DNA of 64,000 nucleotides from Hydractinia symbiolongicarpus (lineage: Eukaryota > Cnidaria > Hydrozoa > Anthoathecata > Hydractiniidae), in the NCBI RefSeq assembly GCF_029227915.1, contig NC_079880.1:21392501-21456500 (forward strand), read 5' to 3'. A program made the translations under genes and the position numbers. The number at the start of each line of letters is the position of its first letter. Positions within the stretch are counted from its first letter, which is position 1. Shown here one piece after another: positions 18,421 through 59,586 of the stretch. The notes beneath the pieces were generated by a model. That model searched no databases. It was not told the DNA's origin and was given only the letters and a program-made list of their open reading frames with translations.

Positions 18421-18557
18421 TTGTTATTTCACAACAACTGTTTGTTTATACTGACAAGAACCTTCTGTGTTTCAAAAATAGTTTTCAAATGTTGGGTAAG
18501 TGGGTGGCGAACCATTAGTATTTTAGCGTATTCAGTTTTTGAACAATAACAACCAAC

Positions 18558-26154: not shown

Positions 26155-26227
26155 AAAAATGAAATCTCGAGATTGATGTCAGGAATATTCTGCAAAAGAC
26201 AATGTTGAACTACCAGTAAACTGCAGT

Positions 26228-29536: not shown

Positions 29537-29701
<165 letters not shown>

Positions 29702-30815: not shown

Positions 30816-32321
30816 TGTTCTGCCCAATCTTAGGACGCTGCCCAATCTTTGGACATAAAATTGCCCAGTCTTAAGACTGGGGTGTCACAAGATTGGGCAA
30901 AAGACCAGGGTGTCACAAGATTGGGCAAAAGACCATGTTAGGCCCATCCTTGGTGCCTTTTAGATTTTAAAGAAGGGATGTATGTTCTGCCCAGATTGCG
31001 AAACGGCCTGTTCACAACCGGGACAGCCGGATTATGTATGCATGGTCCGATTATGTTTTTTCCCTGGTTATCAGCGTTCATAACCCGCTTGATTATGAAC
31101 GCTAATATAAATGGCTGGCATTTTCTTCAAACTTTGTAAATTAAACATTCTCTGGAAGATAGCACACCCCTAAAAACTAGACATGGTGAAAGAAAAAAGT
31201 GTGGACGTAATTCTTAGTATAAACTACTCTTGTAAATACATTTCAACATATATACTTTAAAGTAACTAAATTTCACGGAACCTAAATTATTCTTTTTGCA
31301 GAAATTATTTTGGTGAAAAGTTATTAAACTTGCGAATCCCAAAATTTAGTATTTGCCACGAAATTTTGTTTCATTTAAGAACAACAACAACTTTGCCACC
31401 AGGGCTATTTGCTTGTCAGAAGTGATGACAAATGATATAAAGCAGTCAGCCCCGATTGTATTTGTTTTATAAGTCTCGAATAATATTTAATTGTCATACA
31501 TAAGCCGGCCTTTCCCGATTATGTTCGTTCTATAATAAGTGAGAAATAATATTAGACTGTCGTATATAAAATGGCCTGCCCTGATTATGTTCCTTTTATA
31601 AGTGACAAATAATATTTTTTGAGTAATAAATCGGCCCATCCTGATTATGTTGCCCTAATTATGTATTTTCTGCCCTGTTCTTAACCAGGGCAAGCTGCAA
31701 GTCCCAACAAACATTCTCAGGCACATTAAAACATCATATTTTGGGTACTGTTGAATTGACCCAGCCAAATTTTGGACACAGTAGAGTGAAAATCATAGCT
31801 AGCTAGGTAGCTGGTAGAGAACGTGTTATACATTTAGCATTTATATACAGCTTGTAGTAGTGGCTAAATTTTAAAAATAAAATGTTTATATTTATGAAGA
31901 ATCAGAAAAATCGTATTCAACCATATTATTAGTTAGCTAGCTGTTAATTTCATTGGATGAGATGTTTAACTAGCTAGCGAGCTGTAGCCAGCTAGTTAAT
32001 ATCATAGTCTATAGAAGAAAAACCTTATTAGACTATGCTAATATGGTTGAGTAGTTTCAATTTTTTATACATAAAATACATGGTATATATAAATTGTCAG
32101 CCTTCTGATTTTCCAAGAAAAGTTTCAATTTAAAGTTCCTATTAAGAGGTAAATTCTAAAAAATTTATTGTTCTGTTTGTCTTCCACAATTGTTCTAAGA
32201 TTGGGCATGTACTTCCATAGATTGGGCAGTCCAGTCTTAAGACTGGCCACCCATTTGTCACTGTCAGAAGATTGGCCTGGCCAGTCTTAAGACGGGGTGT
32301 GTTCCAAGATTGGGCAGAACA
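30816..32321. mobile_element. Candidate TIR DNA element (TGTTCTGCCCAATCTT ends)
   Basis: The left end TGTTCTGCCCAATCTT (30816-30831) is matched by AAGATTGGGCAGAACA at 32306-32321. Subterminal CAGTCTTAAGACTGG palindromes and repeated AGATTGGGCA words lie near both ends (30870-30940 and 32195-32300). A second nested pair surrounds repeated 'CCTGATTATGTT' units (31010-31690). No transposase frame is seen. It could be a non-autonomous element with complex repeated ends. Confidence 0.65.
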
Positions 32322-32595
32322 TAACCCTACAGTGCCACTGATTTTTATGAGAGTAATAAAAGGTTGAATATTCCAGCACCGCACTGAAAATGTTTCTCGG
32401 GACTCAGCCCAAAAGCTATAGGACATGTTTTTTAGACCCGGGCTGACATTTTCAATCATGAGAATTGCTAATAATAGTTTTCGCACCTGTATTATTGTTG
32501 AATTGAGATGCTGTGAAAAATGGCTTTTCGATGTCCTGAGAAATGCATAAATTTTTGAACTCTGAAACTATGATAATAGGTCCAAAAACTTTTGG
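32322..32595. other. Non-coding spacer
   Basis: No gene or repeat recognised between the TIR element and the 220-bp tandem duplication. Confidence 0.35.
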
Positions 32596-33035
32596 CTCTA
32601 TTTCATTGGACTGGTTTAAAACCACAGCATACCAGGTTTTGAGATACTCTTTTGATTTTTTAAGAAGTTATGGGACTTTTAATTTTAACCACAAATACGA
32701 TTTTATACTGTTATTGAAATTGTTTTGTAAAATTACCACCTTTAGTAATGTTTAAATTCACAAATGATGTCATGGCAGTATAATAAGCTAATTAATAATT
32801 GCAAGCATTTGCATACTCTATTTCATTGGACTGGTTTAAAACCACAGCATACCAGGTTTTGAGATACTCTTTTGATTTTTTAAGAAGTTATGGGACTTTT
32901 AATTTTAACGACAAATACGATTTTATACTGTTATTGAAATTGTTTTGTAAAATTACCACCTTTAGTAATGTTTAAATTCACAAATGATGTCATGGCAGTA
33001 TAATAAGCTAATTAATAATTGCAAACATTTGCATA
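32596..33035 (+). repeat. Recent 220-bp tandem duplication
   Basis: Copy 1 at 32596-32815 and copy 2 at 32816-33035 are identical apart from about two substitutions (AACCAC/AACGAC and GCAAGC/GCAAAC). The near identity indicates a recent event or an assembly duplication. Confidence 0.95.
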
Positions 33036-33458
33036 CGTGCCATTAAAATTAGGGTTAAGTATCCCCTTTAACCTTTTCCATGAAAATCATAAATGCAGTA
33101 AATATCGTAAAAAAGCATAGTTAAAAATTTTTATTACGTTCTTTTAAATCAAATTGTTATGTAATTGTATATAATAACAAATTCCTCATGAAGACTCCCA
33201 GGAGCTAAATAATTTGGAAAAGCATTTTTTATATATAGTTTGTTTGATTTTACTGTTGGTATATTACTTCTGCAACTAAAATAAAACACAGGCTACAACA
33301 ACCTGTAAATATCAGATATTTACCTAACTAGTCTAAAATCTCCTAACTAGAATACTATCCTAATAGTATAGTAGCCTAATTTGTTTTCCCTAAATGATGA
33401 AGATTGGTTGCATATAGGTAATCTTTACTTATATCACTACATAAAGCTTTTTTGTTTT

Positions 33459-33823
33459 GATAGATAGATAGATAGATAGATAGATGTGCATATTTTACAT
33501 GGCTAGCCTCACAAATATCGAGGGATATACCCTGTCTATTATTTCCAGGAGGGGCCATGGCTTAGATGGAGAGTCCTAGAGTATTTAATGCTCATTTTGA
33601 GCTACGCAGACCCAATTAGTAGGGCCCACGCTCTACCAGACAACTCCCGGCAACATCCAACGGCCCACACAGTGTGCCATCTCCCCAATTTCCCTCACAT
33701 GACTTGGGTTAACCCGGGGCTATGGTAACATTCACTCGCCCATGTTGAATCGCCGTCAAGAGGAATTGAACCCCGGTCTCCCGCACAGAGTACGAAAGCT
33801 ATAACCACTAATCTACGGCGCCA
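33459..33823 (-). mobile_element. tRNA-derived SINE, copy 2, with (GATA)n tail
   Basis: Nearly identical to copy 1 (1681-2096) over the whole body, with small indels (loss of a TAGC near 33535 and a TAG insertion near 33620). The B box has one change (GGTTCAATTCC). The (GATA) tail at 33459-33484 is much shorter. Same orientation as copy 1. Confidence 0.88.
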
Positions 33824-35699
33824 CCCAAATGTAATTTATTAACTATGTTTCAGCTGTTCGACAGCCATTCTTAAGTACAAATCATTGGCATAAACAACTA
33901 TTGCAATATTTTTATACAAATAATTGTATATACGACCATATCCGATGATCATAACCTTGGCCTTAAATGGACTGTCCGGTGAAAAATGATTATAAAGTAT
34001 TATTTTAAATTATCACATAGAAAATACCTTTCTTTTTTGATATTATTCACTTAATCATACATAATCAAACTTTTTATCGTAGTTGTTGTTAATGCATGGC
34101 TTCATCTTGTTGCTGCAAATGTCGGAAAAGGTCCTGAGTTAAAAATTTAATATGCGTAATTATGCATGTTACGTAAGAACAGTGGTGAAAACATACTATA
34201 TGCAGTGAAAGTGTGTAGCGTATTCGGTAGAAAATATAACCCTCCCCCTAGAAGTTAGGTGTTTAGAAACTTATTTTATAAAAAATTTCAATTTTAACCT
34301 CTTCTCTGCAAATTATGAAATGCGATTATTACTATGCCTTCCTGGAACACAAAAATCATGGTATTAGGTTTTCGTTATGAACCGGAAGATTTATAAAATA
34401 CGGGTTGCTCCTGAAACACATTGTTTCAAACTCCGTATTGAATTAAAGTTGAAGTGTATATACCCTAAAAATTAATGCACAGCTATAAACCATCTCATTT
34501 TGATAACATAATTTTGTTAACATATTTTTAGACATTTATACTAACTTTGCGTTATATTTTTTTAGACTGAAGCTTTGAAGTTTTGTGCAGTTTCCTGGTT
34601 TGAAAGAATTGGTAATATTTTAGTAAAAGTTGTTTGTATACAATTTACTGCCTCATTTCAAGTTACCATGAAATACTGTAAAGAAGTAACTGTAGCTTAA
34701 AGTTCCTGCTGAGAATTTACAGGCAATCGGTAACCTAATTGTAGGGGAAAGGGTGGGGCAGAGGACAAGAAAATTTTACCACTTATTTCAATTTATTAAC
34801 ACCCCTCATTAATTTGCGTTCTTCAATAAAAACGTTGTGGAGAACAAAAATATTTATATAAATAACAAAAGCTATCCAATCCTGTAGAGGAAACATTAGC
34901 CAATGTTTACAGTGTCTGATACAAGCAGAATACCTGTTGCACTCTATACATTACCCTCCTAGCCCTCTTCCCCTTGATTTCGGCCCCCTACCCCAACTAT
35001 TGAGTTGAAGGAAATTACCATCCCTGCCCCCACTCCCACTCCTTAATAAGCCCCTCCCACTACAATTAGGGTTACCAAGTGTAGTCTTATTTCTTTCATA
35101 ATACAACGTTTTTTTCATAATACAAAGTCAGTAGTGCTGCTAATTAATCCATTGTTACTTTTGCTGCCAAAAATATTTTGTCAATTTTTAATCGGGGTAA
35201 AAAGATAATTCGTTACTTGGGATGTTTTTTGCTATTACCTTGTATCACTAAAGTAATATAATAATTTTTTATTTTTTAGACATTTTCAGCGTTACACGTT
35301 TTATAAAAGAACACTTGGTGTTCCAGTTTCTTATTTTGGGTACTTTATAAATTTAGTTTTAGTTAATCAAATCTACTAAAATTCCTTTAAAAAATTTCAA
35401 TACAAAACCGTGTTTATTCCAAAATTTCCTTACATAAATTTTGCCTGCAAAATTATTCTTGCTAAAAAAAATCAAACATTGATTCGAATAAAAGTGGATT
35501 TCGTTTCTGATGGCAGTATTCTTAACATAACATTTAGGTGATTTGAAAGGCAAGCCCTTTAAAACGAAAAGTAATTTCTCAATAAAAGACTTTTGATAAT
35601 AGAACGTACAATTTATGGTAACTTGAATTTCTATTACTTTTGTTATTGTAGAAAATGTATGTGTTTGTGCGGTACCTCGTATTCAGTTGATACGCCTGT
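33824..35699. other. Non-coding sequence
   Basis: AT-rich; short open frames only (35359-35553, 35579-35773). No gene, RNA or TIR element recognised. Confidence 0.4.
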
Positions 35700-36330
35700 A
35701 TTTTATGCATACACTCGTATTCAATGTAGGCAATTGTATTTGTAGGGAATGTAGGCGCTCGTTTATAATGCAAACACTCGTATTAGTTTTAATGCAAACA
35801 CTCGTATATAGCTAATGCAGACACTCGTATATAGCTAATGCAGACACCCGTGTATAATGCAAACACTTGTGTATAATGGAAACACTGTCGTATATGGCTA
35901 TTGCAAACACTCGTATATAGCTAATGCAGACACTCGTATATAGCTAATGCAGACACCCGTGTATAATGCAAACACTTGTGTATAATGGAAACACTGTCGT
36001 ATATGGCTAATGCAAACACTCGTATATAGCTCATGCAGACACTCGTATATAGCTAATGCAGACACCCGTGTATAATGCCAACACTTGTGTATAATGGAAA
36101 CACTGTCGTATATGGCTAATGCAGACACTCGTATATAGCTAATGCAGACACTCGTATATAGCTAATGCAGATACTCATTTATAATGCAAACACTCGTATA
36201 TAAGAAGACACTCGTATTTGCTACAGACACTCGTATTTGTTGCAGCCATTGATATTCGTTGCAGCCACTCGTGTTCGTTACAGGCACTCGTATTCGTTGC
36301 AGACACTCGTATGTAGAACCTCGTATTTCA
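35700..36330. repeat. Minisatellite with ~24-bp monomers and a 109-bp higher-order unit
   Basis: Monomers of the type ACTCGTATATAGCTAATGCAG repeat with variants. A composite of several monomers repeats every 109 bp: ACACTGTCGTATATGGCTA anchors at 35882, 35991 and 36100. Decayed monomers (CACTCGTATTCGTTGCAG, CACTCGTATTTTATGCAG) scatter on to about 37110, interrupted by the MITE at 36612-36891. Confidence 0.92.
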
Positions 36331-36611
36331 GTGATTCGATTGTATTTAATGTATCCACTTGTATTCAATACAGCCAAATGTATGTGGACAGTTGCAATTA
36401 GTATAGACACTTATCTCTTATTTGTTGCAGTCACTTGAATGCCGTAATTGTATTTGATGAATGAATTTTATTTAATGTTATACTTGTATTCAATGTGTAC
36501 TCTCGTTTTTTATGCAGACATGTACTTTATGTAAACACCTGTATTTTATGCAGGCATTTGTATGTAGTAACTCGTATTCCGTTATTACACCAGTAATTAA
36601 TGTATATACTT

Positions 36612-36891
36612 CAGTGCTTCGAATAAACGCCTGAGGCGGTTATTTAAGTTTTCGATTTTTAGAGGGGCGTTTATTTAAGAGATCTCTACATTTTCTATAT
36701 ACATATCTATATCATCCATATCGTCAATTATATAATGATGTAGTCCAGCGTTGACCTTATCTTCATATTTATTAAGTGAAACAAGCGTCCCTGTAAAGGA
36801 GAAGGCGTTTATTAAAAGGGGCAATTGATGAAAAAACCTTTAAAAGAGGGAAAGGGCGCGAAAAGGAACAGGGCGTTTAACCGAAGCATTG
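36612..36891. mobile_element. MITE with CAGTGCTTCGAATAAACGCC ends
   Basis: The left end CAGTGCTTCGAATAAACGCC and the right end GGCGTTTAACCGAAGCATTG are imperfect inverted repeats. Internal GGGGCGTTTATTTAAGAG motifs resemble the outer MITE at 10476-11642, suggesting a related family. It is inserted inside the decayed minisatellite. Confidence 0.7.
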
Positions 36892-37119
36892 CGGTACTCA
36901 TATTCAAGCAGACAATGTGTGTAAACACTTGTATTTATGTAGACACTTGTGTTATATGTAGATGCTGGTATTTATGTAGACACTCATATTTTATGCAGAA
37001 ACTTGTAACTGTGCGGAATATGTAAACACTCGTATTTTATGCAGGCACTCGTATGTAGGAACTCATATTCAGGGAGAAAACTGTATGTGGACACATGCAT
37101 TTAACACAGAAACTCGTAA

Positions 37120-37539
37120 AACTCTCGCAAAAGTTTGTGTTTTTAACCCTAAGCATATCGGATTTTATATCCTCCATAACTTCTGATAGCTAAAGCTTCC
37201 TAAATGAAATGGAAACACAAAGTAACAGTAGGAACTGGGAAAAACGACTAAGTTGCGGTCACAAACGTGACAAGGGCCTGACAGAGGGCGGTTAAAACTT
37301 CCTTTATACTTGGCTATGACTCGCATCAACTTTCGTCAACTCGCGTCAATATAAAAGCGTAAAAAAGTGCTTAATGTAAAGACAGCAGGTGAAAAAAAAT
37401 TGCCTTCAAATATGCTTCCAAATGTGAAAATCTTTATTTTGAGTACATATCTTAAAGTTTATAAAATAATTCGCAGAAAAAGACAACCGATAAATTCATA
37501 TTCTTGCAGAAAAAAACGAATTCGAGTATATCCATGTCT
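37120..37539. other. Non-coding sequence
   Basis: No gene recognised. Repeats such as TCGCATCAACTTTCGTCAACTCGCGTCAA near 37320 are local. Confidence 0.35.
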
Positions 37540-37890
37540 TTTTAGTAATCGGGGTGATAGCAAGTTCCGAGGTTGATGTAAAGAACGGGATGATATTAAG
37601 GGGTGAGGTTGATATAAAGAACGGGGTGATAATAAGTGCCGAGGTTAGTACAAGGACCGAAGGTGATAATAAATGCCGAGGTTGATGTAAGGATCGGGGT
37701 GATGATAAGTGCCGAGGTTGATATAAAGAACGGGGTGATAAGTGCCGAGGTTGATATAAGGATTGAAGATCACAATGAGAACCACGTGAAATAAAGATCG
37801 GGGTGATAAACACAGCCAAGGTTGATAGAAGGACCGAATATGATAATAAGTACCCCGTGTATTATAGGATCGTAGGTGAGAATAAATGTC
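37540..37890. repeat. Minisatellite, unit ~36 bp
   Basis: Repeated 'GATAATAAGTGCCGAGGTTGATATAAAGAACGGGGT'-type units with substitutions and indels, about ten copies. The period keeps minus-strand frames open, producing spurious repetitive proteins. Confidence 0.88.
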
Positions 37891-38189
37891 GAGATTCTGT
37901 AAATGCAAGTAGTTTGCTCAGATAGTTCCCTGTCGGGCAGGCGAAACAGGGAAGAAACAGTACCTGGTCCTGATGATAAACTGATCATTCTCGTTGTTTG
38001 ATAACCTACACCTATCGTTTTTCTATCGTACTGTTTAATAAAATATTCTTTCTTTAATTGCGTAACGTTAAGCCGCCCTAATTTTTATCGATTTTGCAAG
38101 CGTTGATAATTTGTTTTTTTTATACAAACGGGTTGCTGGAGGAAAAGAAACACAGTAACTCGTTTGCCCACAGGCACTATTTCCGCAAC

Positions 38190-38335
38190 TTTATGCTACT
38201 AGTCAGTAGCCCGTAGATAAATCCACGGGTTATCGTGTCCTTTATCTACCGCATTTCGTGTGTTTCACTACTGCAGTGACCATTTTGCGTGACAGACACA
38301 CTGACGTATACGGGTATTATAATATAGATAAATAA
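38190..38335 (+). repeat. Dispersed repeat copy upstream of the ZnF-YR-SET gene
   Basis: Shares 'GTAGCCCGTAGATAAATCCACGGGT', 'GTCCTTTATCTACCGCATTTCGTG' and 'GTATACGGGTATTATAATATAGA' with 39420-39545. Confidence 0.7.
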
Positions 38336-38959
38336 GTAACAAGAAAAACCCGTTCATTTTTGGGAGTATTCAAAAAATTTCCGCAGATACAATATTTCGA
38401 GAAAGTGACAGAAACTCGCACTTTGTGGAAATTATTTCACGTTGCAATTAAACCTTATCTAGTAAGATTAGCCGTATAAATAAAAATTGGATCCTGGTTG
38501 AGAAAAACAAAAACACAAAATACAGCCTGCAGTTACTATCGCGTAGGAAAATTCACCTGATACTTCCAGTTCACCGAAAACAAAGATGAAAGTTCCATTT
38601 AATTGCTAAGTACAGGTGGCTACGCCTTATGAATTAAATTTACGCATCATTTCCTTCCACCGGTGTTATTACAACTGCTTACTTCAGTAGAACTGTATTT
38701 GTATGAATATGTATTTTTATCTTTATTTTAGAATTTTCGACATGGAAGGTAGAAAGTCTCTCTGCAGAAATACAGTACGGCAATTAGTTTATGTAACAAG
38801 ACTATCAAAACAATAGTTGTTGTAGTTTTACATAGCCAGATGTTAGTAATGTGTATAAAACATAGCCTATTTACCTATTGCTATGTTAAAAAAGAGTTGT
38901 CCGAATTTTTTTTAAAGTTATGGACTTGACTTGATAACAACGGTTTTGTTTATTATTAG

Positions 38960-41900
38960 CCTACCATTCAGAAGTACAGTTCTCACGAGTTTGATAACTT
39001 GAAAGATGCAGTGAGAAAAAAGTCACCGTGCAATGTGTTAGTTGGCGTTATTGAAAAAATAATGGCTTTGAAAAATGTTTTGGTTATTAAAGTAGCTGAT
39101 GGCACTTGTGAAGCATTTGTTCGTGTCCAGGAGTACTGCGACAAATTATCCAAATATATCAGCTCTGGGGATATATTGTACCTAAAAAAAATAACTTTTG
39201 ATGAGGATAAAATGGGAGAATTTGCCAAAAAATCATTGATTTCGAAACATTCAAACATGGTGTTACCATATCCAGAGCATTGTAAGTAACTCTTAGTAAT
39301 TTTATTTTATTTTATTTATTTATCATTTATTCGGCAAAATTAGGTAGGTGCAAGTATTTCTTGTTTATTAACCATTTATAACGATTTTCAAATTTCTTAC
39401 GTTTCAAATTTTTAATTACTACTAGTCGGTAGCCCATGGAAATATCCCGGGTTCGCCCGTCCTTTTTATACAGCATTGCGTCTCGCTAATTGGGCAGCTA
39501 AAATACCATTTTGCGTGACAGACAAACGTATACGGGTATTATAATATAGACTAGTCGTTAAACCGTGGAAAAATCCACGGGGTCGCCCGTCCTTTATATA
39601 TCGCATTTCGTGTTTCCGTAACAAAAAGACAAACAGACGCACGAACACACAGACGGAATACGGCTATTATTAACGAGATAGCCGGTAGCTCGTGGAAAAT
39701 CCACAGGACCGCCCATCCTTTATATATAGCATATTTCGTGTTTCCGTAGCACAACGTTTTTCTCGTGCACAAACAGACAGACGGAATACGGCTATTATTA
39801 AAGAGACTAGTCGTTTACCTGTGGAAGAATCCACGGGGTCGCCCGTCCTTTATATATCGCATTTCGTGTTTCCGTAACAAAAAGACAAACAGACGCTCGA
39901 ACAGACAGACGGAATGCGGCTATTATTAAAGAGATGTGCGGGCATCGTGATCTTAAATTCAGTCGCACGGTAGCACACTTTTAAAAGTCACTTTGTTGGT
40001 GTTGCTAATAATATGATCGATAATTTTCTGGTCGGCGAGAATATGTGTTGATTTCGTCCAAACATTTGTAAGATATCTTTGTATTTCATTGTTACTGGGT
40101 TATCGGTGTCGTAAAGATCTATGTTAAAGTCATCAGTAAAAAAACGAGACTATTCCGTTTTTTAAAAATTTCTGACAGTTTTGGTGCTTAAATTTATTTA
40201 GCTATTCAATTTTTTCACTATCCACAAAGTTCAATTGATAAAATGTCCCTAATTACATGAATTTAAGATAATCTTCCGATGTTACTAGGTCAACGGTGCG
40301 GAGCATGTTTTTTTATGTATCATTATGTCAAAGTTCATATTGTTCAATATAATATAAAATCCATCGAACATTGAAGAAAGTGACTGAGCGTCCTGATGAG
40401 CTGTTTTGAGTTGTGTGATTTATTTTTTCTTTGTGTGTCCAGTAAATGTTTTGATGCGATTGATGAGAACCAGGCCACGGATTTTTCGCTATATCGCCTG
40501 ACAAAATTATGTTAAAAGTTGCTATTGAATTACTGTAATATAAAATGCGTCTGTTTGATCGCTTCAGTGGAGAAAACATGAACATAAAACTTGTCTGTAT
40601 AACCATAAAACTAGGATTAACTCCAAAATTATCACACCACCAAAACAGCATCCAATTGTTACCATACATATATCAAAACAGTCAATAATCCAATAAGCTA
40701 GTTAACACTTTAACAGGTACAACTCGTTTAACATATAATGTTTATGTATCCACTCCACATTTACACGTCTGTTACACATCCGATCATCTCTCGCTCAAAT
40801 TTTATAATGTTTTTAATGTTAACGTTCAAGCTTTTTAACGTATTGGAGACGTGTTTGAAAAATAACTCACAATATTGTCTTTCAACGTTGAAGCTATCCC
40901 ATGAATGTAATGCCTTCTTATTCGCATTATCCTTAACAATAATATGACAATATTTTTTAGGGAAAAAAATGTTTTATTTCGAACATTTGGAGGCACTTCA
41001 TTCGTTTATCTACTGCAATTATAATATTGTTAAAAATACATCTGATAACGACGAAAGCGAATGGAGCATCTTTTCCTTTAGCGAAAAAGGTTAGACTATT
41101 TCATCAAGGTGTAGTATTGTGTTAGTCTGAAATAGAAATTTTTTATCTTTTTTTTTTTAGATCCAGAGTTCATTATCACAATTGCAGTGAGTTAAATTAC
41201 TTTGTACTTTTAACCCTACTGAGCGAAGTTTAGGAAGAGTGGAGGGAGGGGACTTGGAATTCTTTCTGCACATAGCGCTTTATAAGATAGATAAAATGAA
41301 GAAAACTTTAAAGAAGATTTTCTTAACAAAATATTTCTGAGAGAGTCACCCAATTCCAACACTTTGATGCATACCGTAAATGCTCGATTAAGCGCCCCGG
41401 GCGTTTGTTTGAATGTTGGCTTTTAGGGTGGGCTCTAGATGGGCAGTAAGTCAAAAAGCGCTTATAACAAAATATCATTTTTCTGTTATGTTAAAGTCTG
41501 TTTTAAGGAAACTATATTGGTCGCAAAATAAAAAGAACAACGGATATAGATGAAGCAGGTATAAAATAACATGCTTCTGAGCGTAAAGGTTTATGGTTAA
41601 ATTTTCTCTGCGTCAATAAAATGAAAGCGGATTTTTTAAACAAAAAGGTAGACAAACATTTTGACAAATGTTTTATGATGCATTTTAAATTTTAAAAATA
41701 CTTGATTAAGTGCGCTTATTCGGGAGTGGGAGCTTAATTGAACATTTATGGATGCTTAGTAATAGTTATAATGGATAGTTATAATGCGTTTGCTATAAAC
41801 TTTGCAGTCCGATGAAGCGCCAGCGCACATGGAGGAAATGAATTCAATGCAGAAAGATAACCTGGTAAAAAGATTAACTTCTCCATAATATTTTACAGCG

Positions 41901-44900
41901 ATTTACATTTGTGTTCTTATTAATGAATTACTTGTTTTATCACTAGGTTCAAATTCAAGAAGAAGAAAGCACTTCGGAATACGAGCCCAGCTCATTGGAT
42001 AGTGAATCAGGTACAATTAAGCCTGTTAGCCTGTTATTATTATGGGCTAAGATTTTAAATTAAACAAAGTCTGTTAAGTTGTCGGCCGTCCAATGAGCTC
42101 TGACAGGTTTGCGTACTTGTTTTATAGATATTTGTTCTAATTGCGACGAACTTCGAACCTCGACCAACGTTTGCAATGTATTAAGTCCGAAATTGTATTT
42201 AATCTTTTAAACATTCTCTCTTTCCTTGGTTATTTTTCCTTTGCTTTTTTGCATTTAGAAAAAGAAAGAGAAGATCAACATCTTATAATGGTTAGACATT
42301 ATATCACCCTCTCTTTTAATCTATTTTCTGTTAAGCTTTTAGCCGGATTTTGTGTTTCACAAGGGAAATTTACAAATTACCCGGGCATATTATGATCAGA
42401 TACAAAGTTAAGCTAAAAAACTGATAGGGGACCATTTAGTCCATTGTTTTCTACATAGCTTGAACTATTCCTGTCTACACTTTTGTTTTATTGTCTACTG
42501 AAATGTGACTTACTTATTTAGTATCATAAAGCTAAGAAAAGAAAACAGTCTGATGTCAACAAAAACACTGCAACTAACAGAAAGGTACAAATGCAATTCT
42601 TTTCTTGTTATTGTATCTATTCACACAAACATGGTCACTAGTATTTCACATTTTAATCTTTTTTATTAGAATGGAAAAAAGGAGAGTGGGAAGATGGAAA
42701 CATCAGACTCCGAAGAGGACATCTTCTCTCAACGCAAGGTATTATAAAACCATAACGATGTATTATATATTAAATATATATTTTATATATAATAAATTCA
42801 GCTGTTGTGCTCAATATCTGTTGTACAATTTTTCGGATATATAGATTTACTGGTTTTTTAGACAAAGAAACTAAGACAAGCAGAGCAAGCTGCGGAGTAC
42901 CAGCCACAAGACATTATTTGTAAAAAGCGTGAATTTCAACACCGCTTAAAAAAAAGGAATGCCCCTCTTAGAAAAGTGAAAACCGAATTGCAATTGAAGA
43001 AGCAGAGAAAGAAAGTTGAAGAACTCGTTTCCCAACATTTGGGTTCTGCTGATGCTATAACACAGCACTATCATGGTTTACAAAAAAAGTACTATATCTA
43101 CAAGTGTTCTGTCTGTGGGGCGTTTGTGAGCGAAAAATTAAGAAGACACTTACAAGAAAAACATAAATACTCATGGTCGGATGCCAGGCTACAGGAAACA
43201 AAGATGCGTGTATTTTTTCTGTGGTGCAACGCGACAAAACATGAAACACATTTACCGTTGCCGTGTATGGAGTGCAGCGAATGGCATACGAGGTAGAGTT
43301 ATTTTCTAGCTATCGGAGCTCCTCTGGGCATCCTCACCCTTGTCAGGTTTATTAGTAACTCTCTTTTCCTATATTGTATGGCTACGATACTTTGTAGCCT
43401 TTATATTAATCTTCAATTTAATTTAATTTAAAGACGTTTAGTAGTAAAGTAGCAATGTGAAAAAGGCTGTTTTGAACGTTTATTTTTTATTTTTTAATAC
43501 AAATATTTTATTTTTTACCAAAAACTTTCCGTTACTTACTTACTGTTAATTCGTGTAGAGCGACCTAGACGCTGGATACAAATTGTTAACGCCCAATAAG
43601 GCGCATTGTGGCACTTTAGGCGGAGAGGGTGTAGTGGTAGCGCATTTGACTTGTAACCATAAGGTTTAAGGTTTGATTCCTCACTCTGCTCAATTTGAAT
43701 ATACTGTAGTCAGCCCATTTCAGCTTTTTAATGGCCGCTAATTGGCTTGTGTGGCAGGCAAACAAGTTAGAGCAATGCTATACTTATCTCTCGTACTTAG
43801 ATTTCGAAAAGCGAAAACATCTCATTGCTTATACTATATTTTAAGGCTAGATCATCATCTCAAACGTCATCCTTTTCATAAACAGATGTCTATGGAAGAA
43901 ATAAAAGAAACAGTAGAGCAAGCTAGGGCTGAACATTGGAGCAAAGGATTTGGCCAAAATGGCAGTAAAGTACCAAGTGAGGACAAAGTAACAGAAAAGT
44001 TTAAATCTAACCTAAATGTTGAGGCGGATGGCGACGATTTTGTGTCAAGATCACAGCCAGTGCCTTTGCAACATGATCATCCAAGTTTGGACTATATTCC
44101 GTCAGGATCTTGCCGTCTCACTTCGTCCAAACGAAAGGAATGGGGTGTAAAACCTGATGATTTTTTTAGTATTTATTTTTCCACTGCTGATGACTTGCTA
44201 GACAATTTTCAAGAAGAACTGCTACAGTCTGGCCATACAAAAGACAACTCAACTCAACATAGAAACCAAGTTGAATTAATATGGACATCGATAAGCAAAG
44301 ACCTCGTCATGTTTCCTATAAATCCCCTTTCGAACATGCATTTGTTAAGGGATTATTACCATCGGCCTACATTTAAAACTATTGGCAAAAAGGATGGAGT
44401 GCAGGCGAGCACCTTGCGTGCACGTTATGGATCTTTAGGAATGTTTTTACAGTACCTCCGACGTAACGAGATTTTTGCTGGAATGAGCAGATTGCAGCTT
44501 TCCTCTCTTTCACAATCTGCTAATGATTTCAACAAGCAGTTAAACCCGTTGGTGAAGCAGAGAAAGGTCGAAATTAGAAAGAACAAGTGCAAGCAGCTGC
44601 TTCGACCAACGCATTTTATCAAGTATGGTGAGAGCAAATTTGTGCAACATTTGATTTCACAAGTGCAGAAGGGAGTTACAAAGAGGAGCCAATTTACAAG
44701 ATCGTTTGCTATTCAATTTCGTGACTATTTGATCACCAATTTAGTTATTGGAAACGGATTGCGTGCCTCTAACATTATCGAGCTGACAACAAAGGATGTG
44801 GATAATGCTACAGTTGTGGAGGGCTATGAAGGACATAAAGTACTTTCCAACTACAAATACAAGACAAGTACAATTTATGGCGAAAAATTCATCGTCGTAA

Positions 44901-47900
44901 ATGACATGCTCTATTTGCAACTTCAATTTTTCCTTCGCAATTTGAGATCAATAATTTCAAAAAACCCTTCATTAAAAGTTTTTCTTCCTGCCTCTGGAGC
45001 GCCGAAGATGAGCCAAACAAATGTGTCGGCAAGCTTAACGGCAAGTTTTAAACTTGCAAAAGTTTTATTTCAAAATGAATACCAACGCATTTCATGTACA
45101 AGAGTGCGATGTGGTCTGGCAACGTTTGCTTGTAACGATGGCGGCTTTGAATCAGGTTTTTTTGCGAAGCATTTTATGAAAAACAAAGAACAGACGACGG
45201 ACATGCACTACAACTTACTGTCGAATCGCAGACATGCGTTGAATATAGCCATGAAGCTATATGCTTCTTTCAACGGCGTCGATGGAGAGAAAATTACGAT
45301 TGAACCAAAAGATGTCCATGAAATAGCCGATAAGCTTAAAAAATCTTCCGGGAATCTGAACAAAGAACAGATACTTCGCTGGTTAAAAAGTAACGATCCA
45401 CATGTCACCAAAAGCGAGTTGGCTGATTTCGAGGAAATGTTAGCTGAGTGTGATCAAAAACCAAGCGGAAATACTTCAAGTTTCTATGGTGCTTCGCAGC
45501 AGGTAAACAATTATTTTAAACGTTATGGTACCTAAAGCCACAAACAAAAACAATAAAAAACAATTATTTTGGCTACTTATTATTTTACTTTTTTTAACTT
45601 TTTTTTAAAGATTTATTTTAACCGACGCAATTGTTTTCAAACAAACTAAAAACTTTTGACTCATAGCTTATTCGCAAAAGTTAAAAAAGTGAAGTACAAT
45701 ACAGTTTAAATGAATTTCCTTAGGAGAAAGATATTGATTTTATTTCCGTTGCTAACTTGGATGGTACTACCACAGAAAACGAAAAGGTTTGTTTTTACTT
45801 AACATACAAGATAACTAGCTGATAAACAGTGGTAATAAAACTATCATGATCTTCATATAAACTTTAGCTAAGTAGCGAGCGCAGCTCTGAAGATGGCGAC
45901 AGTGATAGCGAGAATGAAAGTTTTGTTAATTCCCACGATGGCAGCTTAGAGGTATAGTCCGCAAACTACATTCTTTTAAAACAAGTTTATATGTTTTGGT
46001 TTTACACTTTTAGGCAGGTTAAATATTAGACACGTTTATAATTTACGCATGTACTTATTATAATCTACCCATAGGAGCAGTGGACAGATAAAAATGTTAA
46101 AAACATCAGCAAAAAAGTTTCTACTAGGACGAAGGTATATTTTGCAATATTTGAAAAATATGTTTAAAAGCAAGACTAAACTTCAGATCACGAAGCAAGC
46201 CTTTTGGTTCCAAAGAGGAGTTATTTGAGGCAAAAATATTTTGACGAGTATATAATCGACTTTTTTTCTATTTTAATGAGTAGACTTAGTAATTCGAAAA
46301 TATAGAAATATAAATTTATGAGATCGTTCATGTGAATATCGTAAGCATTCAATAAAAAGTGTTGTTGATTTTTAGGTCGAAATAACATCTGATTCCAGTG
46401 GCTCAGATATAGACTGCGATCATCTACAGGTAAAGTAATATCTTTAAGCAAAATGTCAATGGGTCTTACAGCTTTTTATAAATTTGATTTCGGTCATCAC
46501 TTGGTTGCACACTATCCCTACAAACCCTTGAAACAAACAACATGTATATGTAGTAACCTAGCTTGATAGCACACAAAAGACATATAGACAGCGACATGAT
46601 ATTTTCTTATACTTATCTATGTTATGTTATGTATCTGTCTATGTGTTTATCGTCTGGATTGTTTAGAGTGATATCCAGGACGTTCTGTTTCAATATGACC
46701 AAAGGCGACCAGGAGATCTCATATATGCACGACAAAGTGGTGGAAGGATTGCCTATTTGATGTGTGCTCACTTTTGTGAGCCATTGATTATCCGAAAGCC
46801 ATTTGATAATGAATTTAGTGTCGAAACATTTAAAGATGAAGAAGTGGCTTATTTTATAAGTAAAATTAAGAGCAGTATTTTGCGCAAACATCTGGAAATG
46901 TTTACCCCAACGAGTGTTAAATTTTTCGTACTGGCCCTAAGAAGAAAATATTGGTCTAATGTTAAGCTTAATTTCACAAAATGGAAGAGATTCAGAAAAG
47001 AAGGGTCTAGCATGATTCAAATGTGTAAAGATTAGTAAGTTTGCTGCTACTACTGTTTTTATATACGTTTTCACTCAAAAGCAGCACAGGATGTGCAAAA
47101 ACCTAATCTTGAACCCCTGATAAAGTATATACATATTGGCTTTGTTTGAAAATTCCTTTTTCTTTCTTTCTAGCAATGATTTTTCTGTTACCTCGGTGAG
47201 TGTTTTATATTTATGTTTTACTTTAGAATAAATGGAAAGCCATGTCATACTTTTTAAATTTTTCTGTTCCCGTACAAATTGTTATTGATATGAAGTTTCA
47301 AAGATATTTTAAAGGTCTATCTATATAGAGCTCTCTAGAGAACGAAAAATTATAGTGATAAATACGAGTCAGAAAAATACATAGTTTATGACGGTATGTA
47401 TCTCTTTACGTGTTTTTCTGACAATTCGATATTTAATAGCCTGAGCAAAGAAATAAAGATAATGACCTCCATCACACTAGTCAAACCAGCGATTACAAAG
47501 AAGAGGTAAAACAAATTAATGCTGTTTTGAAAACAGAGCCTGTATGCATTATTACCGACTATCATTATGTATATTTTAGTCAAGTAGCGCCAACCAAGAC
47601 TTATCGCAAAAAGACAATGCCAAATCTGTGGTCTGCGTCAAGCAAACGAAGGTAATTTAGATGCAATGAATTTTGAAAAAAAAATATCATTTAAATAAAA
47701 TCTTACCTAAAAAATCCAAATTATTTTGTGGTTGTAGAACTATGAATTAAGAAAGGCTACCGTCTATGTACCACCAACAGTATGCGACACTCCATCATTT
47801 ATGCATGACGTAAGTGATTTTTTTGTTTGTTTTTATTTGGTTTGGTCTGCGAGCATACTAGATTAAATAGTCAGAATGACTTTTTGAATTTAGCCAAACG

Positions 47901-49684
47901 AGGTGAAGCAACAGAATCCAAAAGCATCAGAGGTAATAATATGGTTCTAATCATCATTAAGTCATCGAACTACCTTTTTTTCACTAAACACATTCCATTT
48001 TGGAATGTTATAGGTTCTCCAATCTTGTAACGACCATTTTACGCGTCCAAAAGAAGTAAGTAACACGGAGCCGGCATTACACTGAATAATCATGCTGTTT
48101 ACTCTTTAAATGTTATGATTGTATCAAATAAAAGTATTACTATTTAGGAACAGGCTTTGGGGGATGAGCAATGTTGCTTGACAAATGTAGATCCCTCAAG
48201 CAATTTCATTTGCAAAAAGATCGACAGTTATATAGGTAGATCGCTAGTTCATGCAGTCCATAACAAACTCTTCCAAATATCTTCCAATGTGAGCACGCTG
48301 GTAATAAAACACTGATCAATTTTGTTGATATTCTAGGCCATGGTGTATTTGCTTTAAAAAAATTCATACCTGGCGACTTTCTTCTCCAGTATCCTGGAAG
48401 TTTAGTGACCGCGGAAAAGGGTGATAAACTGGAAAAATACTATGAAAAGAAAGGAAAAGGATGCTATCTTTACTTTTTTAATTACCATGGAAAAAAATTA
48501 TGGTAAGAATTTCGTTGGATTATCAAAAGTACGCTGATGCACCTTTCTACACATTTTTTAAATATATTTTTAGTGTGGATGCTACAAAAAACAATCGGTT
48601 GGGCAAATTTGTCAATGACAGCCAGAAGTCCTACGCCAACAGCGTAATGAAAGTAAAGACGTTTGGTGGGAAACCTTTTCTTTGCTTATACGCATTGAAA
48701 ACTATTGAGAAAGGTTCAGAGATCAGGTAACTATCTCTAACAAAGAAATGTAAACAATTAAATCCTGTCATCAATTATTACATTTTTTACAATTTCTATT
48801 TCTAGATATAGTTATGGCGAAACTTCTGGTCTGACTTGGCGAAAAATGGTAGGAGAAATAAAGTTAATTTAACTGTTAAATAAGGCTATCCTTTTCATAA
48901 AAACCGTGTTGTTGCTTTGGCCACCTAATACAACCACCACTTTATGTTGCGGAATAAATTTACAAAAATTAGCTAATTGAAAATATATAATTTGTCATTA
49001 AAATTAATATAAAGTCATTAAAATTTCAAAATATGTTAGTTTTTTTCAAAACACATAAGTGTAATTTCCAAAGTAAACAAAAAAGAGCCTGCCATAAATT
49101 TGACATCGCACATACCGGACGAACATGCCAGAATATGTGCTTCGGCCATCTAAGTCTGCAATGCAACAAAAACGTATTGTGCGCACACGAAAATTGCAGT
49201 GCGGCGCTTTGCTAACACATTTACCTAATATTTGATTCAGCCTCAGTCTTGAATACATTTTTATCACAAATATCAAGTGTAAAGGTACTACAGATACATT
49301 TGCGATCATTGTTAAGGACGATAGTTTTTCAGCATGATCAACAATAAAATGAAAAGTTACTTACTTTTTCTGTACATGTTATCTTGATGAAATTTATCTG
49401 ATTGTTTCTTCAAATTGTATCGTTTATAGGCAAACTACAAAAGGCCATTTTCCTTGACAACTCTGGTAAGTAACTCTCATTTGCAATTTGCAGTATGAAG
49501 CAACCGCCTTTTTAAACACTTTGTTCTACTTCTTAATTAGGGTAAGATGGATGAATCAGTAGACGCCAACTTAGAGGTAATCAAGATTTATACCACTATT
49601 ATTGTGGCAACTAATTCGTGTTATTTAAAAAACTTTCCATTTCCATTTTAGCTATCACCTGATCGAGAATTAGATTTAGGTTAA
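38960..49684 (+). CDS. Multidomain protein: OB-fold-like / C2H2 zinc fingers / tyrosine-recombinase-like / SET (28 exons)
   Basis: 28 exons with continuous phase give 1448 codons, then TAA at 49682. Exons: 38960-39281, 40961-41089, 41161-41186, 41808-41864, 41947-42010, 42259-42290, 42522-42584, 42670-42738, 42862-43292, 43846-45502, 45724-45786, 45868-45951, 46075-46134, 46376-46429, 46667-47034, 47174-47195, 47440-47505, 47580-47651, 47738-47809, 47894-47932, 48014-48055, 48148-48235, 48337-48502, 48574-48726, 48806-48848, 49430-49465, 49541-49576, 49652-49684. Order: OB-like residues 1-107, acidic/Lys-rich linkers, two C2H2 fingers (~335-410), YR-like domain (~560-880), acidic linkers, a ~120-residue unknown block (~1037-1160), SET (~1294-1410). 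It suggests a chromatin factor partly derived from a recombinase. The first exon is not placed; an ATG at 38742 is a candidate. Confidence 0.9.
39420..39950 (+). repeat. Tandem array of a ~128-bp dispersed repeat (intron 1 of the ZnF-YR-SET gene)
   Basis: Four units starting near 39422, 39547, 39677 and 39803. Each has 'GTGGAA-AATCCACGGGG', 'CGCCCGTCCTTTATATATCGCATTTCGTGTTTCCGTA' and 'CAGACGGAATACGGCTATTATTAA' segments. Single copies occur at 9105-9195 and 38190-38335. Confidence 0.88.
40328..40669 (-). mobile_element. Possible retrotransposon fragment with degenerate 2A-like peptide
   Basis: The minus-strand open frame contains IILSGDIAKNPWPGSH. LINE polyproteins of several invertebrates carry a similar SGDIxxNPGP motif near the N-terminus (a 2A-like ribosome-skipping sequence); here a Trp replaces the Gly of NPG. 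The rest of the frame is not recognisable. Lies in the first placed intron of the ZnF-YR-SET gene, antisense. Confidence 0.4.
41373..41752. mobile_element. MITE in intron (ACCGTAAATGCTCGATTAAG ends)
   Basis: The left end ACCGTAAATGCTCGATTAAGCGCCC and the right end GGGAGCTTAATTGAACATTTATGGA are imperfect inverted repeats about 380 bp apart. They lie between the exons at 41161-41186 and 41808-41864. GGGCG-TTT-like internal words link it to the other 'GGGCGTTTATT' elements in the window. Confidence 0.65.
42862..43292 (+). CDS. Exon with basic region and first C2H2 finger (part of ZnF-YR-SET gene)
   Basis: 143 codons, phase 0 in and phase 2 out. A Lys/Arg-rich helical stretch (KKREFQHRLKKRNAPLRKVK) is a possible nuclear localisation signal. 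Finger 1 is KCSVCGAFVSEKLRRHLQEKH, C-x2-C-x10-H-x4-H. Finger 2 begins here (LPCMECSEWHTR) and is completed across the 553-bp intron by RLDHHLKRHPFHK in the next exon (C-x2-C-x9-H-x3-H), so an intron interrupts a zinc finger. Confidence 0.85.
43619..43691 (+). repeat. tRNA-like sequence (probable tRNA-derived relic)
   Basis: Has an A-box-like TGTAGTGGTAGCGC and a B-box-like GGTTTGATTCC. A seven-pair acceptor stem can form (GGCGGAG with CTCTGCT, two G-U pairs) and the anticodon loop CTTGTAA would read TGT (Thr). The anticodon stem pairs poorly and the D stem is short, so it is more likely a tRNA pseudogene or SINE head than a working tRNA. Lies in the intron that splits zinc finger 2. Confidence 0.55.
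43846..45502 (+). CDS. Large exon encoding the tyrosine-recombinase-like domain (part of ZnF-YR-SET gene)
   Basis: 552 codons plus one base. An N-terminal SAM-like/core-binding region (TLRARYGSLGMFLQYLRR) precedes a catalytic-fold region. First Arg in GNGLRASNIIEL (R704), beta-hairpin Lys-rich YKYKTSTIYGEKF, second Arg in RVRCGLATFA (R819), Tyr in TDMHYNLLSNRR (Y853). The R-R spacing (115) and R-Y spacing (34) match tyrosine recombinases. The His of the HxxR box is Thr and the later His/Trp position is Asn, so strand-exchange activity is doubtful. The exon would run on to a stop at 45535 if the donor CAG|GTAAAC at 45503 were not used, giving a shorter isoform ending ...YFKRYGT. Confidence 0.85.
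48148..48848 (+). CDS. SET-domain exons (part of ZnF-YR-SET gene)
   Basis: Four exons (48148-48235, 48337-48502, 48574-48726, 48806-48848) in continuous phase. Motifs in order: GHGVFALKKFIPGDFLLQY, GCYLYFFNYHGKKLC, VDATKNNRLGKFVNDS, IRYSYGE. The layout is closest to KMT5A/SETD8-type SET domains (GKGV..., CVDAT..NRLGR.INHS, YDYG). The usual NHS box reads NDS (N1363, D1364, S1365), while the catalytic Tyr-type YxYG is kept (Y1401/Y1403). No pre-SET or post-SET cysteines are seen, also as in KMT5A. Predicted role: protein lysine methylation if active. Confidence 0.88.
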
Positions 49685-50289
49685 TGTTTCGTTTGTATTT
49701 AATGGAAGGTCCGTTTATGTAAATGTTAGATTTCACTCTATATGTTTAGATAACTACAGGGTCAGCGGACGTTAATTTTTTCTATCTCTTTAATTTTTAA
49801 ATATGCTACGCTAAAAGTATTGAACGATATTATTTTTAACTGCCATTTTGTATATTGCGTGTATATATGATTATACTCATTACTGCGTATCTAACTATTA
49901 ACTTTTAGTTGGTTCTTACAAACTAAGATTTGGATAGTTACAGTACTATTTTAACCTAATTTAGTGATAATTTCTGATCTTTGGCGAAACTATAGCGCTG
50001 TCCCTGTAAATGTATTTATTCAATCTGTAATCAGTGTTGATTTAAAGATAATTATAGTTACGAAATAATTAGCTTGTAATGGTTGCAATGGTTGTTTTGA
50101 TTATCCCAGTAATAATCCTTTGTAAACAATTATGCAAAACTGCACCATTACTTTTAGTTCATCTGTAGCCAATTATTGCTTAGTTCTTGTTACACGATAA
50201 ATTAAAAGACACACAAAATGTAGCATATTTTGGTATTCTTGTCAGCGTAATTGCTGGGAAACCTTTTCTTTGCTTATACGCTCTTGTTG
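49685..50289. other. 3' flank; holds a 27-bp fragment of SET exon sequence at 50255-50281
   Basis: AT-rich 3' region of the ZnF-YR-SET gene. The 27 nt at 50255-50281 (TGGGAAACCTTTTCTTTGCTTATACGC in two parts: TGGGAAACCTTTTC, TTTGCTTATACGC) equal 48667-48693 inside the SET domain exon. A CAGCGTAA word just upstream also matches, separated by a deletion. Confidence 0.7.
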
Positions 50290-50785
50290 TTAGTAATTTA
50301 AAAAGTGGCGGCTGATCATCACAATGATGGAATTGATCTGGTAGATCTGTGACAGAAAAAAAACCTAGAGGGTTTTGAGAAAATTAAAATTCTTTCTCTT
50401 CCAAGAAAAGAATTTAGAAGGAAACAACGCAACAAGTGAATAGTTGGATAAAGCATCAACAAAGAGTAGACTTCGACACATATTTTTAAACCTATTTAAA
50501 CCTGCAACAATGCTTTTTTTGCATTGATCGAGTCGGGTACTTTGATGGAGTTATCACTCTCCAAAGATAAGGCTGGGTGTAATTAAACCCCATTGCCGAT
50601 TTAACTATTTGGAAAAGATAGTTTACCTCATCTATTATAAAAAGAATAGGTACGATTTGCGGATTGTTTAATACTGGTGGATTCATTTGAGATTTCTGGT
50701 CAAACACTGGTATGATGGCAATCGCAATGCAAATCAATTGCAGACAGCACAGTGCGCGATACGGATTTGTGAAGTACTGCACCAC
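50290..50785 (-). CDS. Candidate small membrane protein, 71 aa, 2 exons
   Basis: Exon 1 is 50627-50785 (ATG at 50783-50785, donor GAG|GTAAAC). Exon 2 is 50290-50346 (acceptor TTTTTCTGTCACAG), joined in phase 0 with TAA at 50290-50292. The N-terminal half has a hydrophobic segment (ALCCLQLICIAIAIIPVF). A second hydrophobic segment (IVPILFIIDE then IYQINSIIVMI) is formed across the junction. Composition and good splice signals support a real gene, but I do not recognise the family, and the short length leaves room for chance. Its 3' UTR would run antisense through the SET-exon fragment at 50255-50281. Confidence 0.5.
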
Positions 50786-51498
50786 TTATTGCGACAAAGT
50801 AAAAAAACAATATATGTATATAAAATAAGAATAACAATAAAGTGAACTACACCTTCATAGTGTTTTTAGAACAAAAGGATATGTTTTTATCAAAGAAGTT
50901 ACTGACCATAAAAATGTACCTTCCCCAAATAAACTAATTAATGTTTCGCCCAGAAATGCATGTTGTTATGTATTTTAAGAGTTAGCACAAAATCTGAAAA
51001 ATAAACAGTTAACAACACTTTAAATATTGCATAGTTCTTCCAGCAAAAAAATGTAAAATGTAAAAAATATTCTTGCAAGGAATAAATTATTGCATGCAGT
51101 CCTTCCCCACCAAACTTTACACAAAATGTCAAAATGAACGGTTTGTGAGAAGTAGATCCGTATTAACAAAAACAGTTTTTTCAGCAACTTGAATACTGTC
51201 TTTAACCAAAAAATTTTTTTCACAAAATACAAATCTCATACAGTAGACTGCTACGAAATTTATATAAAATATTTACAGAAAGTAAAAGCATGGTGTAAAA
51301 TCTAATTAGAGGGTCCAAGGAGTCTCTATTTATATATATGTATATATAGATAACGAGACAGTCAAGTAATCGAGACAAATTTAGGATATGACCGTAGGCT
51401 GTCTGGTGCGTTTATCATTATTTCGCACTTTTTAAATTGGTTATTCTACTTTGTCTAAGGGCCGGAATATTTCCCATATGAGAAATAAGGCCCTTAAG
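50786..51498. other. Non-coding sequence
   Basis: No supported gene. Would contain the promoter of the candidate gene at 50290-50785. A short TATATATATG run lies at about 51335. Confidence 0.35.
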
Positions 51499-52055
51499 GC
51501 GGGCTTGCACGTACAGTTTTCTTGTTAAAGAAATCTTTCGAAACAAGTATTTCATAGTGTAAGGAGCATTTCGAAATATTTTAAAACATTTCTAAAGTTT
51601 TTACCACCTGCTTTCTTCTAAAAGTTTTTTCAAAGGATGCCGACATCCTGACTATATCACATGGCGTACTTTCATTCATCACTTTGAGTTTGACATTGTG
51701 TATCTTCTAAACAAACGAAGATACGTAATTTTACGAACAAAAAACACAAACTATAATTGAATTCGATGCAGCGCGTAGATTTCGCAACAGGCAGGCACCA
51801 TATACGCCAACAGCAGAGGAACAAGGATGGTAAAAAACGTTTTATTTGAAGTAATATTTCCAGTGAGTAATAAAATAAAGGTGCAGTTTTTTCACTTTTG
51901 AATTTTTTTTGTATCGGGTTGACCATGGCACCTGAATTACACCATGACTCAAGTGATTACAAACATTTCGCAATAAAGATTGATATAGTGTAAAAAGCTT
52001 GAAATTTTTCTTTCGAAAGTTTTCTTTAACAAGAAAACTGTACGTGTAAGCCCGC
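51499..52055. mobile_element. DNA element with ~45-bp TIRs (GCGGGCTTGCACGTACAG)
   Basis: The left TIR starts GCGGGCTTGCACGTACAG at 51499 and continues TTTTCTTGTTAAAGAAA. The right end at 52011-52055 is the near-perfect reverse complement, ending CTGTACGTGTAAGCCCGC. Length is 557 bp. The internal minus-strand frame (51672-51926) is too short and unlike a transposase, so it is non-autonomous. A target duplication was not settled. Confidence 0.88.
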
Positions 52056-52275
52056 ATTTACTATATTGTTCTTTTAAGATAAGCGGTTTTTTTAAAGATA
52101 ATGCTGAACTACACATTGAAGCATTCCCTCAAAATTTTAAAATAAAGCTTAAATATGGCAAATTTTCGTAAGATGCAGATAATAACGAAAACAAATTATT
52201 TCGGACTAAATTAAATAACGTACACGATTTATTTCAAGAAAATTTTTGGAAAATTTCCATAAAATATCAAAAAAT

Positions 52276-52402
52276 CGGCTAACGATGAGCTAGCGATGAG
52301 TTCAGCAGTGAGCTAAGCAGGTATTTTTACGTTGACACTATGGGCTAAGGTCTTAGCGCGTCATGCGCATTATGGTTAGCTCATCGTTAGCCCATAGTGA
52401 GA
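52276..52402. repeat. Nested palindromes (GGCTAACGATGAGCTA and CACTATGGGCTA)
   Basis: Outer arms GGCTAACGATGAGCTA / TTAGCTCATCGTTAGCC enclose other 'GATGAG' copies. Inner arms CACTATGGGCTA / TTAGCCCATAGTG overlap them. Looks like a small rearranged MITE. Confidence 0.6.
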
Positions 52403-52691
52403 ACCAAGGTTAAACGATTTGTTAAGCGGGTCATTGTTCCTCTTTGGTTTCCTTTTTTTTAAACTATACTTGAAAAATAATTAGATTAATATAAATAAAT
52501 TAGAATTAATGGACATTTTCAATTCTCCGACAAGTACTACAACATAATTTACCGTACACAAGGTTACAAAGATTTATTTTCTTTGTTTTTGAAAGGAGCA
52601 AAAAATTAACTTTTCTTTTAAGATGTTGCCTTAGGTAAAAAAAAAGAAAAAAAGATTAATGAGACATATCAAAAAACGAATATCAATAAAG

Positions 52692-52855
52692 GTCTGAAAT
52701 ATCCCACCTGTTATTATTACAAGTTTGTTAGACATAATAATGTCTGAATTATCCCACCGTCTGAATTATCCCACCATGTCTGAATTATCCCACCATTTGT
52801 CTGAATAATCCCACCATGTCTGAATATTCCCACCATTGTCTGAATAACCCCACCA
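52692..52855 (+). repeat. Tandem repeat TGTCTGAATTATCCCACCA, ~19-26 bp
   Basis: About seven copies of GTCTGAATTATCCCACC with variants, from 52692 to the beginning of the (TAA)n array. Confidence 0.88.
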
Positions 52856-53138
<283 letters not shown>

Positions 53139-57220: not shown

Positions 57221-58076
<856 letters not shown>

Positions 58077-59539: not shown

Positions 59540-59586
59540 TTTTAAACGTGTTTAGACACATTATATCCCTGAGCGATAAAGTCAAC

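Follow-up and report, generated by a model that had tools for sequence, protein, structure and literature searches.

An intron-rich, recently mobile DNA transposon of Hydractinia symbiolongicarpus, which recombines into AAT microsatellites by means of a tyrosine recombinase (YR) fused to a SET domain, is in our judgement the probable explanation, held with good confidence, for the gene found in the 64,000-nucleotide stretch of DNA analysed here (contig NC_079880.1, positions 21,392,501 to 21,456,500; hereafter the window). If so, the histone-methyltransferase domain is part of the recombinase protein of a mobile element, insertion into AAT microsatellites has a natural recombinase, and some of a gene-family expansion in the literature consists of mobile DNA. 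The question of whether a transposon sets the chromatin at its own sites also becomes testable. The YR-SET gene is the only recognised gene in the unit and is positioned mid-element, and the unit lies in the window as follows:

29540..29701, unstranded: left (AAT)n tract, presumed target (end scan)
29702..52865, plus strand: mobile unit of 23,164 bp; three other copies align across this span and stop at the flanking (AAT)n tracts, with different outer flanks
29713..29729, plus strand: left-end unit GGTGGTGCATTTCAGAC, inverted relative to the right array and present in 5/5 copies scanned
52742..52854, plus strand: right-end array of six tandem units of the GTCTGAATA..CCCACC type, with six matches in each of four copies
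52866..53138, unstranded: right (AAT)n tract, presumed target (end scan)

The copies are near-identical and dispersed, share their ends and differ in their flanks, and this shows that the unit is mobile. A genome search with the recombinase exon gave at least 64 matching stretches at E ≤0.001 (79 of 119 candidates were scored, and in places several stretches belong to one locus). The count of copies that an earlier, sequence-only reading had proposed yielded four places at which this exon is 100% identical over 552 aa, one on C2, one on C4 and two on C6 (one of these being the window), together with a decayed fifth copy on C14 that has 97% identity and three stops. For each of the four non-window copies, the surrounding 40 kb were compared with the window. 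The C2 copy differs from window positions 29561-52259 by 14 mismatches in 22,699 bp, introns included, and a further 824 bp match to position 53080. The C4 copy and the second C6 copy (C6b) align with that span as separate pieces, with identities of 99.3-99.9% for long pieces and down to 95.9% for short, repeat-rich ones; a 4.3-kb insertion is present in the C4 copy near window position 35573, and about 430 bp of extra sequence near 52259 in both the C2 and the C4 copies. The C14 copy is fragmentary, and exons 14-29 of the gene were not found within its 40 kb.

The 29-exon coding sequence is open in all four good copies, with 1, 2 and 5 nucleotide changes in C2, C4 and C6b, respectively, and one amino acid change in each. 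Using sequence lengths corrected by hand, changes were rarer in coding than in non-coding sequence for C4 (2/4416 vs. 55/18,975, p 0.0007) and C6b (5/4416 vs. 70/19,025, p 0.0025), and the difference was not significant for C2 (1/4416 vs. 14/19,107, p 0.20). Since introns are kept in the copies, the unit did not pass through an RNA intermediate.

The sequence-only reading had left a choice between a domesticated Crypton-like recombinase acting as a chromatin regulator and an intron-bearing mobile element with its own SET domain. The second of these is supported by the near-identical dispersed copies, their shared ends and their different flanks, and the first finds no support at this locus. 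Domestication was the first working idea and was dropped once identical recombinase exons had been found at four genome places. A host gene that joins a recombinase-derived DNA-binding domain to a KMT5A paralogue as a chromatin regulator, with the copies arising as recent segmental duplications, is accordingly very improbable. Such a gene would suit the 29 exons, which are unusual for a transposon, the presence of the recombinase as one long exon among small ones and the absence of the usual YR histidine, and other domesticated recombinase genes are known (PMC3212892, in excerpt). However, copies on three chromosomes end at identical bases in (AAT)n and have different flanks, as do those of a related family, F6. 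Furthermore, domesticated DUF3504 genes are described as having lost the catalytic tyrosine (PMC3212892, in excerpt), which is invariant here in five families.

The ends of the transposon are sharply defined. All four good copies begin at one identical base (TATAGTTAATTGG...) after (AAT)n, the six-unit array precedes the right (AAT)n, and 8/8 ends abut such tracts with differing outer flanks. The 244 kb scanned contain ten (AAT)6+ tracts, of which nine belong to these ends (one interrupted end being counted twice) and the tenth is at window position 57693; the decayed C14 copy has no (AAT)6+ tract in the scan. Inverted, the left unit matches the right-array unit at 16/21 bases, a match that is weak on its own because 40/2000 shuffles reach it. 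Terminal inverted repeats, suggested earlier as a mark of mobility, did not emerge convincingly from a repeat search of 36500-51500, since this span stops short of the true ends; what those ends do carry is an inverted unit on the left and, on the right, an array of units of approximately 17 bp. Several other features were seen nearby. Window positions 57693-58076 hold a long (AAT)n tract beside an ATAAT-type array, away from the ends of this family, and open frames with the appearance of a non-LTR retrotransposon endonuclease and reverse transcriptase lie just outside the left end (24955-28995). Two similar open frames that flank the element (18543-18947 and 59413-59955) contain what we take to be a methyltransferase-like motif.

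Strand exchange by tyrosine recombinases needs a short matching core, and AAT microsatellites could serve as targets because AAT repeats supply one. In the mechanism proposed here, the recombinase, perhaps with the fingers, would bind the ~17-bp units of the right-end array and the inverted left unit, in the way that tyrosine recombinases in general occupy a pair of inverted 11-13-bp arms flanking a segment of 6-8 bp (PMC3212892, in excerpt). The element would then close into a circle with a junction formed by an AAT core between inverted arms, and this core would recombine with AAT microsatellites elsewhere. Such a circle would account at once for the ends, the choice of target and the presence of introns in the copies. 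Least certain is the step in which the SET half would methylate H4K20 or another lysine near the donor or target, opening or marking the site.

Movement by other means has to be weighed at this point, as the C4 copy has a neighbour with the same kind of ends:

3044-16811 of the fetched C4 stretch, reverse complement: C4 neighbour unit, with end units in (AAT)n

This 13.8-kb unit has similar end units in (AAT)n, shares one tract with the C4 copy and gave no YR or SET match by tblastn, so ends of this type may be served in trans. It holds an open reading frame that we take to be piggyBac-like. In the same stretch, positions 2-712 (+) form a 237-aa open frame with the appearance of another type of tyrosine recombinase. 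The neighbour, and the capacity of long AAT tracts to recombine by homology alone, would suit a YR-SET gene that is a passenger in an element moved by an enzyme encoded elsewhere, by recombination between AAT tracts or by break repair. This is nevertheless quite unlikely, given that the recombinase is conserved and under apparent selection across families and stays open in near-identical copies, that inverted unit arrays at the ends are unexpected from tract recombination, and that the retained introns speak against an RNA intermediate. Moreover, between 29.7 and 38.7 kb of the window, no open reading frame above 141 aa appears in a listing by length.

The gene of the transposon is predicted at 38742-49684 (+), with 29 exons that total 4416 nt, stop codon included, and encode 1471 aa; its introns are of the GT-AG type and the splice phases agree. 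The predicted protein runs from zinc-finger-like Cys/His pairs through the tyrosine recombinase to the KMT5A-type SET domain:

38742..38774, plus strand: exon 1, presumed start ATG (gene model)
38960..39281, plus strand: exon 2; match to family F2 over residues 25-141 (35%, E 1e-7)
40961..42738, plus strand: exons 3-9, linker with acidic and basic stretches (gene model)
42862..43292, plus strand: exon 10, zinc-finger-like Cys/His pairs (C347, C350, H361, H366; second pair C400, C403 completed in exon 11)
43846..45502, plus strand: exon 11, tyrosine recombinase by profile searches; four identical genome copies
45724..46429, plus strand: exons 12-15, acidic linker without Met (gene model)
46667..47034, plus strand: exon 16, unnamed conserved domain; matches to F2 (42%, E 2e-24) and F6 (27%, E 1e-5)
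47174..48055, plus strand: exons 17-22, linker (gene model)
48148..48848, plus strand: exons 23-26, KMT5A-type SET domain by Pfam and PDB sequence searches
49430..49684, plus strand: exons 27-29, C-terminus and stop (gene model, SET-half control)

This model began as 30 exons from a home-made exon-chaining program, for which the training of the codon table had included exons of this same gene. Hand edits dropped two tiny exons, moved three exon starts and added one exon, giving 29. In both runs of the program, exon 48148-48235 was absent and exon 48337-48502 too short; these two exons were set by hand and rest on KMT5A resemblance, because they were chosen for rebuilding the canonical KMT5A SET sequence. 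The rebuilt model and its domain matches bear out the sequence-only reading that one gene joins zinc fingers, a YR-like domain and a KMT5A-like SET domain. The 28 exons and 4347 nt given there covered the gene with agreeing phases and lacked the ATG exon, and its R704, R819 and Y853, noted for their tyrosine-recombinase spacing, correspond to R715, R830 and Y864 in the 1471-aa model (an offset of exactly 11). Exon 2 had no match in a Pfam search; it may resemble an OB fold. Part of SET exon 25 (48663-48693) recurs as a copy of 31 bp (97%) at window positions 50251-50281, in the 3' part of the same unit.

A single continuous transcript probably crosses the YR and SET halves. The first Met of the SET half is residue 1080, with none in exons 12-15, and an in-frame stop codon stands directly upstream of exon 12; the SET half therefore seems dependent on the recombinase half. 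Just after exon 11 there is an in-frame stop at 45533 and an AATAAA at 45552, and so a short form without SET is possible. The same two signals would also fit a pair of genes in one unit, the first a YR transposon gene that stops after exon 11 and the second an independent gene for SET. This arrangement is unlikely, as the SET half has no start codon before residue 1080 and its exon path scores far above shuffles. In a control on the SET half, using codon statistics from the YR exon alone and hand-entered splice matrices, the score was 56.3, compared with at most 11.7 for 60 dinucleotide shuffles and 18.9 for the reverse strand, and the path gave exactly 15/18 exons of the hand-edited model. 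The related families also speak against two genes, in that F6 has its SET on the other side of the recombinase and in three families the exon-16 domain comes after the YR.

Within the fused protein, the stretch 43846-45502 is assigned to the tyrosine recombinases by profile similarity over the catalytic domain, and would have strand-exchange activity. Its match to Pfam Phage_integrase, a comparison proposed by the sequence-only reading, is present (E 0.0031) with a score under the curated cut-off, and NCBIfam gave XerA at 7e-6 and XerD at 0.008. Against a profile of ten YRs the exon scored 48.0, with maxima of 20.6 for 60 shuffles and 14.5 for four other regions of the protein, and the score rises to 56.8 when five relatives from the same genome are added. 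In addition, 5/5 members of alignment A1 match Phage_integrase (best 1.4e-7), and XerD stands at the top of a PDB list (E 0.023); the exon alone gave no match at E ≤10 in a single-sequence PDB search. A single-sequence structure prediction of the exon was discarded, its mean pLDDT being 34. No match was found in PHROGs, and no window homologue was confirmed among the viral contigs scanned. By tblastn, the phage match was an integron integrase of a single Shewanella phage, present as two records (E 4); this integrase is one of the ten yardsticks of the YR profile.

R715, T827, R830 and Y864 are invariant across five families, so that of the R-H-R-Y tetrad the two arginines and the tyrosine are present and the histidine is threonine in 5/5 families; H851 is replaced by Asn in F5. 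Between families, the recombinase has pN of 0.27-0.42 against pS of 0.79-0.84 (saturated), which fits purifying selection.

For the SET domain, the comparison with Pfam SET gave E 3.1e-12, and the KMT5A class proposed earlier is upheld by the PDB matches, in which the best 14 sequences are all KMT5A/SETD8 (top E 9.4e-22) and the next family starts from 2.6e-14. The SAM-site NHS motif of KMT5A reads NDS in the SET domains of the window, F5 and F6, and the fact that three families keep NDS favours a specialised or non-catalytic function rather than plain decay. With the H-to-T change in the YR box and the NHS-to-NDS change in SET, recombinase and methyltransferase activity are possible, as predicted from the domain matches. 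The zinc fingers, also put forward from the sequence, are weak: the best C2H2 Pfam match is not significant (E 0.32), and the Cys/His pairs recur in F6.

SET was seen in 3/6 YR families inspected (the window family, F5 and F6), three of the six being represented by partial sequence. For F6, seven loci had near-equal scores in the genome search, and the two compared in full are 12,974-bp units with 99.8-99.98% identity. Their ends lie at (AAT)n in 4/4 cases, with a right-end array of ~17-bp units, and the left end has a perfect 17-bp inverted match that was reached by 0/2000 shuffles. The order in F6 is SET, fingers, recombinase and exon-16 domain, and its SET alignment holds stops where introns seem to be crossed. 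In F5, at about 4.15 Mb on C14, the recombinase precedes SET and the right-end array is followed by (AAT)27; a search of the 12 kb upstream did not reveal the left end. F5 also has a twin locus in the genome. The ends of F5 and of the C4 neighbour were identified from these same two features, tract and array, and give no independent confirmation. To the right of the F5 (AAT)27 (right of 24775 in the joined F5 stretch) a different tandem array starts, perhaps the end of another element. The parts seen in F2 (58% in the recombinase) are those of exon 2, the fingers, the recombinase and exon 16, with no SET in 10 kb, and no SET was seen in the 4-5 kb available of F3 and of F4. The two orders of SET and YR could be a circular permutation of the circle or plain domain shuffling.

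There are also likenesses to known mobile systems. Cryptons, like this element, are YR DNA transposons with a presumed circular intermediate, and occur in cnidarians and other animals (PMC3212892, in excerpt). However, animal Cryptons are described there as having neither a C-terminal domain nor terminal repeats, whereas the units found here are 13-23 kb long, with many introns, terminal arrays, (AAT)n sites and a fused SET. These 23-kb and 13-kb units with SET differ from the small, YR-only form without an accessory C-terminal domain that marks a Crypton, and the Crypton-derived DUF3504 gave no Pfam match at E ≤1 for the window protein or at ≤0.1 in a later search. Starships are likewise large YR-moved units with inverted terminal repeats and target-site preference, but they are fungal, ~20-700 kb long and carry dozens of cargo genes and a 5' captain (PMC12153272, in excerpt). 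The animal element has one recognised gene placed mid-element, not a 5' captain YR with many cargo genes. DIRS and Ngaro retrotransposons are marked by a reverse transcriptase next to the YR; in the present element, a listing of open frames by length shows none above 141 aa between 29.7 and 38.7 kb of the window, and the introns are retained. SETMAR/Metnase shares the fusion of SET to a DNA-transposon enzyme, but it contains a mariner transposase and has one intact primate copy (PMC9062482 and PMC8327481, in excerpt), whereas the present fusion has a YR, another SET class and several intact copies that are still or were recently moving. No description of a recombinase-SET transposon was found in the open-licence papers searched, as judged by titles and abstract openings.

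In Hydractinia symbiolongicarpus, 65 KMT5A-similar genes have been reported as an expansion and treated as host genes; 13 of the KMT5A-like genes are switched on early in embryogenesis and another nine by 7 h, and a similar expansion is reported in Hydra and sea urchin (PMC10368294, in excerpt). Most of these genes have an N-terminal SET in a longer gene, as in F6, and the words recombinase and integrase are absent from the main text of that paper (PMC10368294). Part of the published 65-gene set would belong to the elements described here. A wider reading, offered as a conjecture rather less probable than an even chance, is that an animal superfamily of microsatellite-targeting YR transposons writes its own histone mark via a captured and diverged KMT5A, that this mobile DNA would account for a large part of the KMT5A expansion described from hydrozoans and sea urchin, zygotic-genome-activation genes among them, and that the SET-YR and YR-SET orders would be circular permutations.

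Beyond the families inspected, the genome contains distant recombinase-like open frames with 21-26% identity, for example at C1:27490388, C5:23404533, C9:4987595 and C2:18257499. Some of them form near-equal pairs, and they perhaps represent another group of YR transposons.
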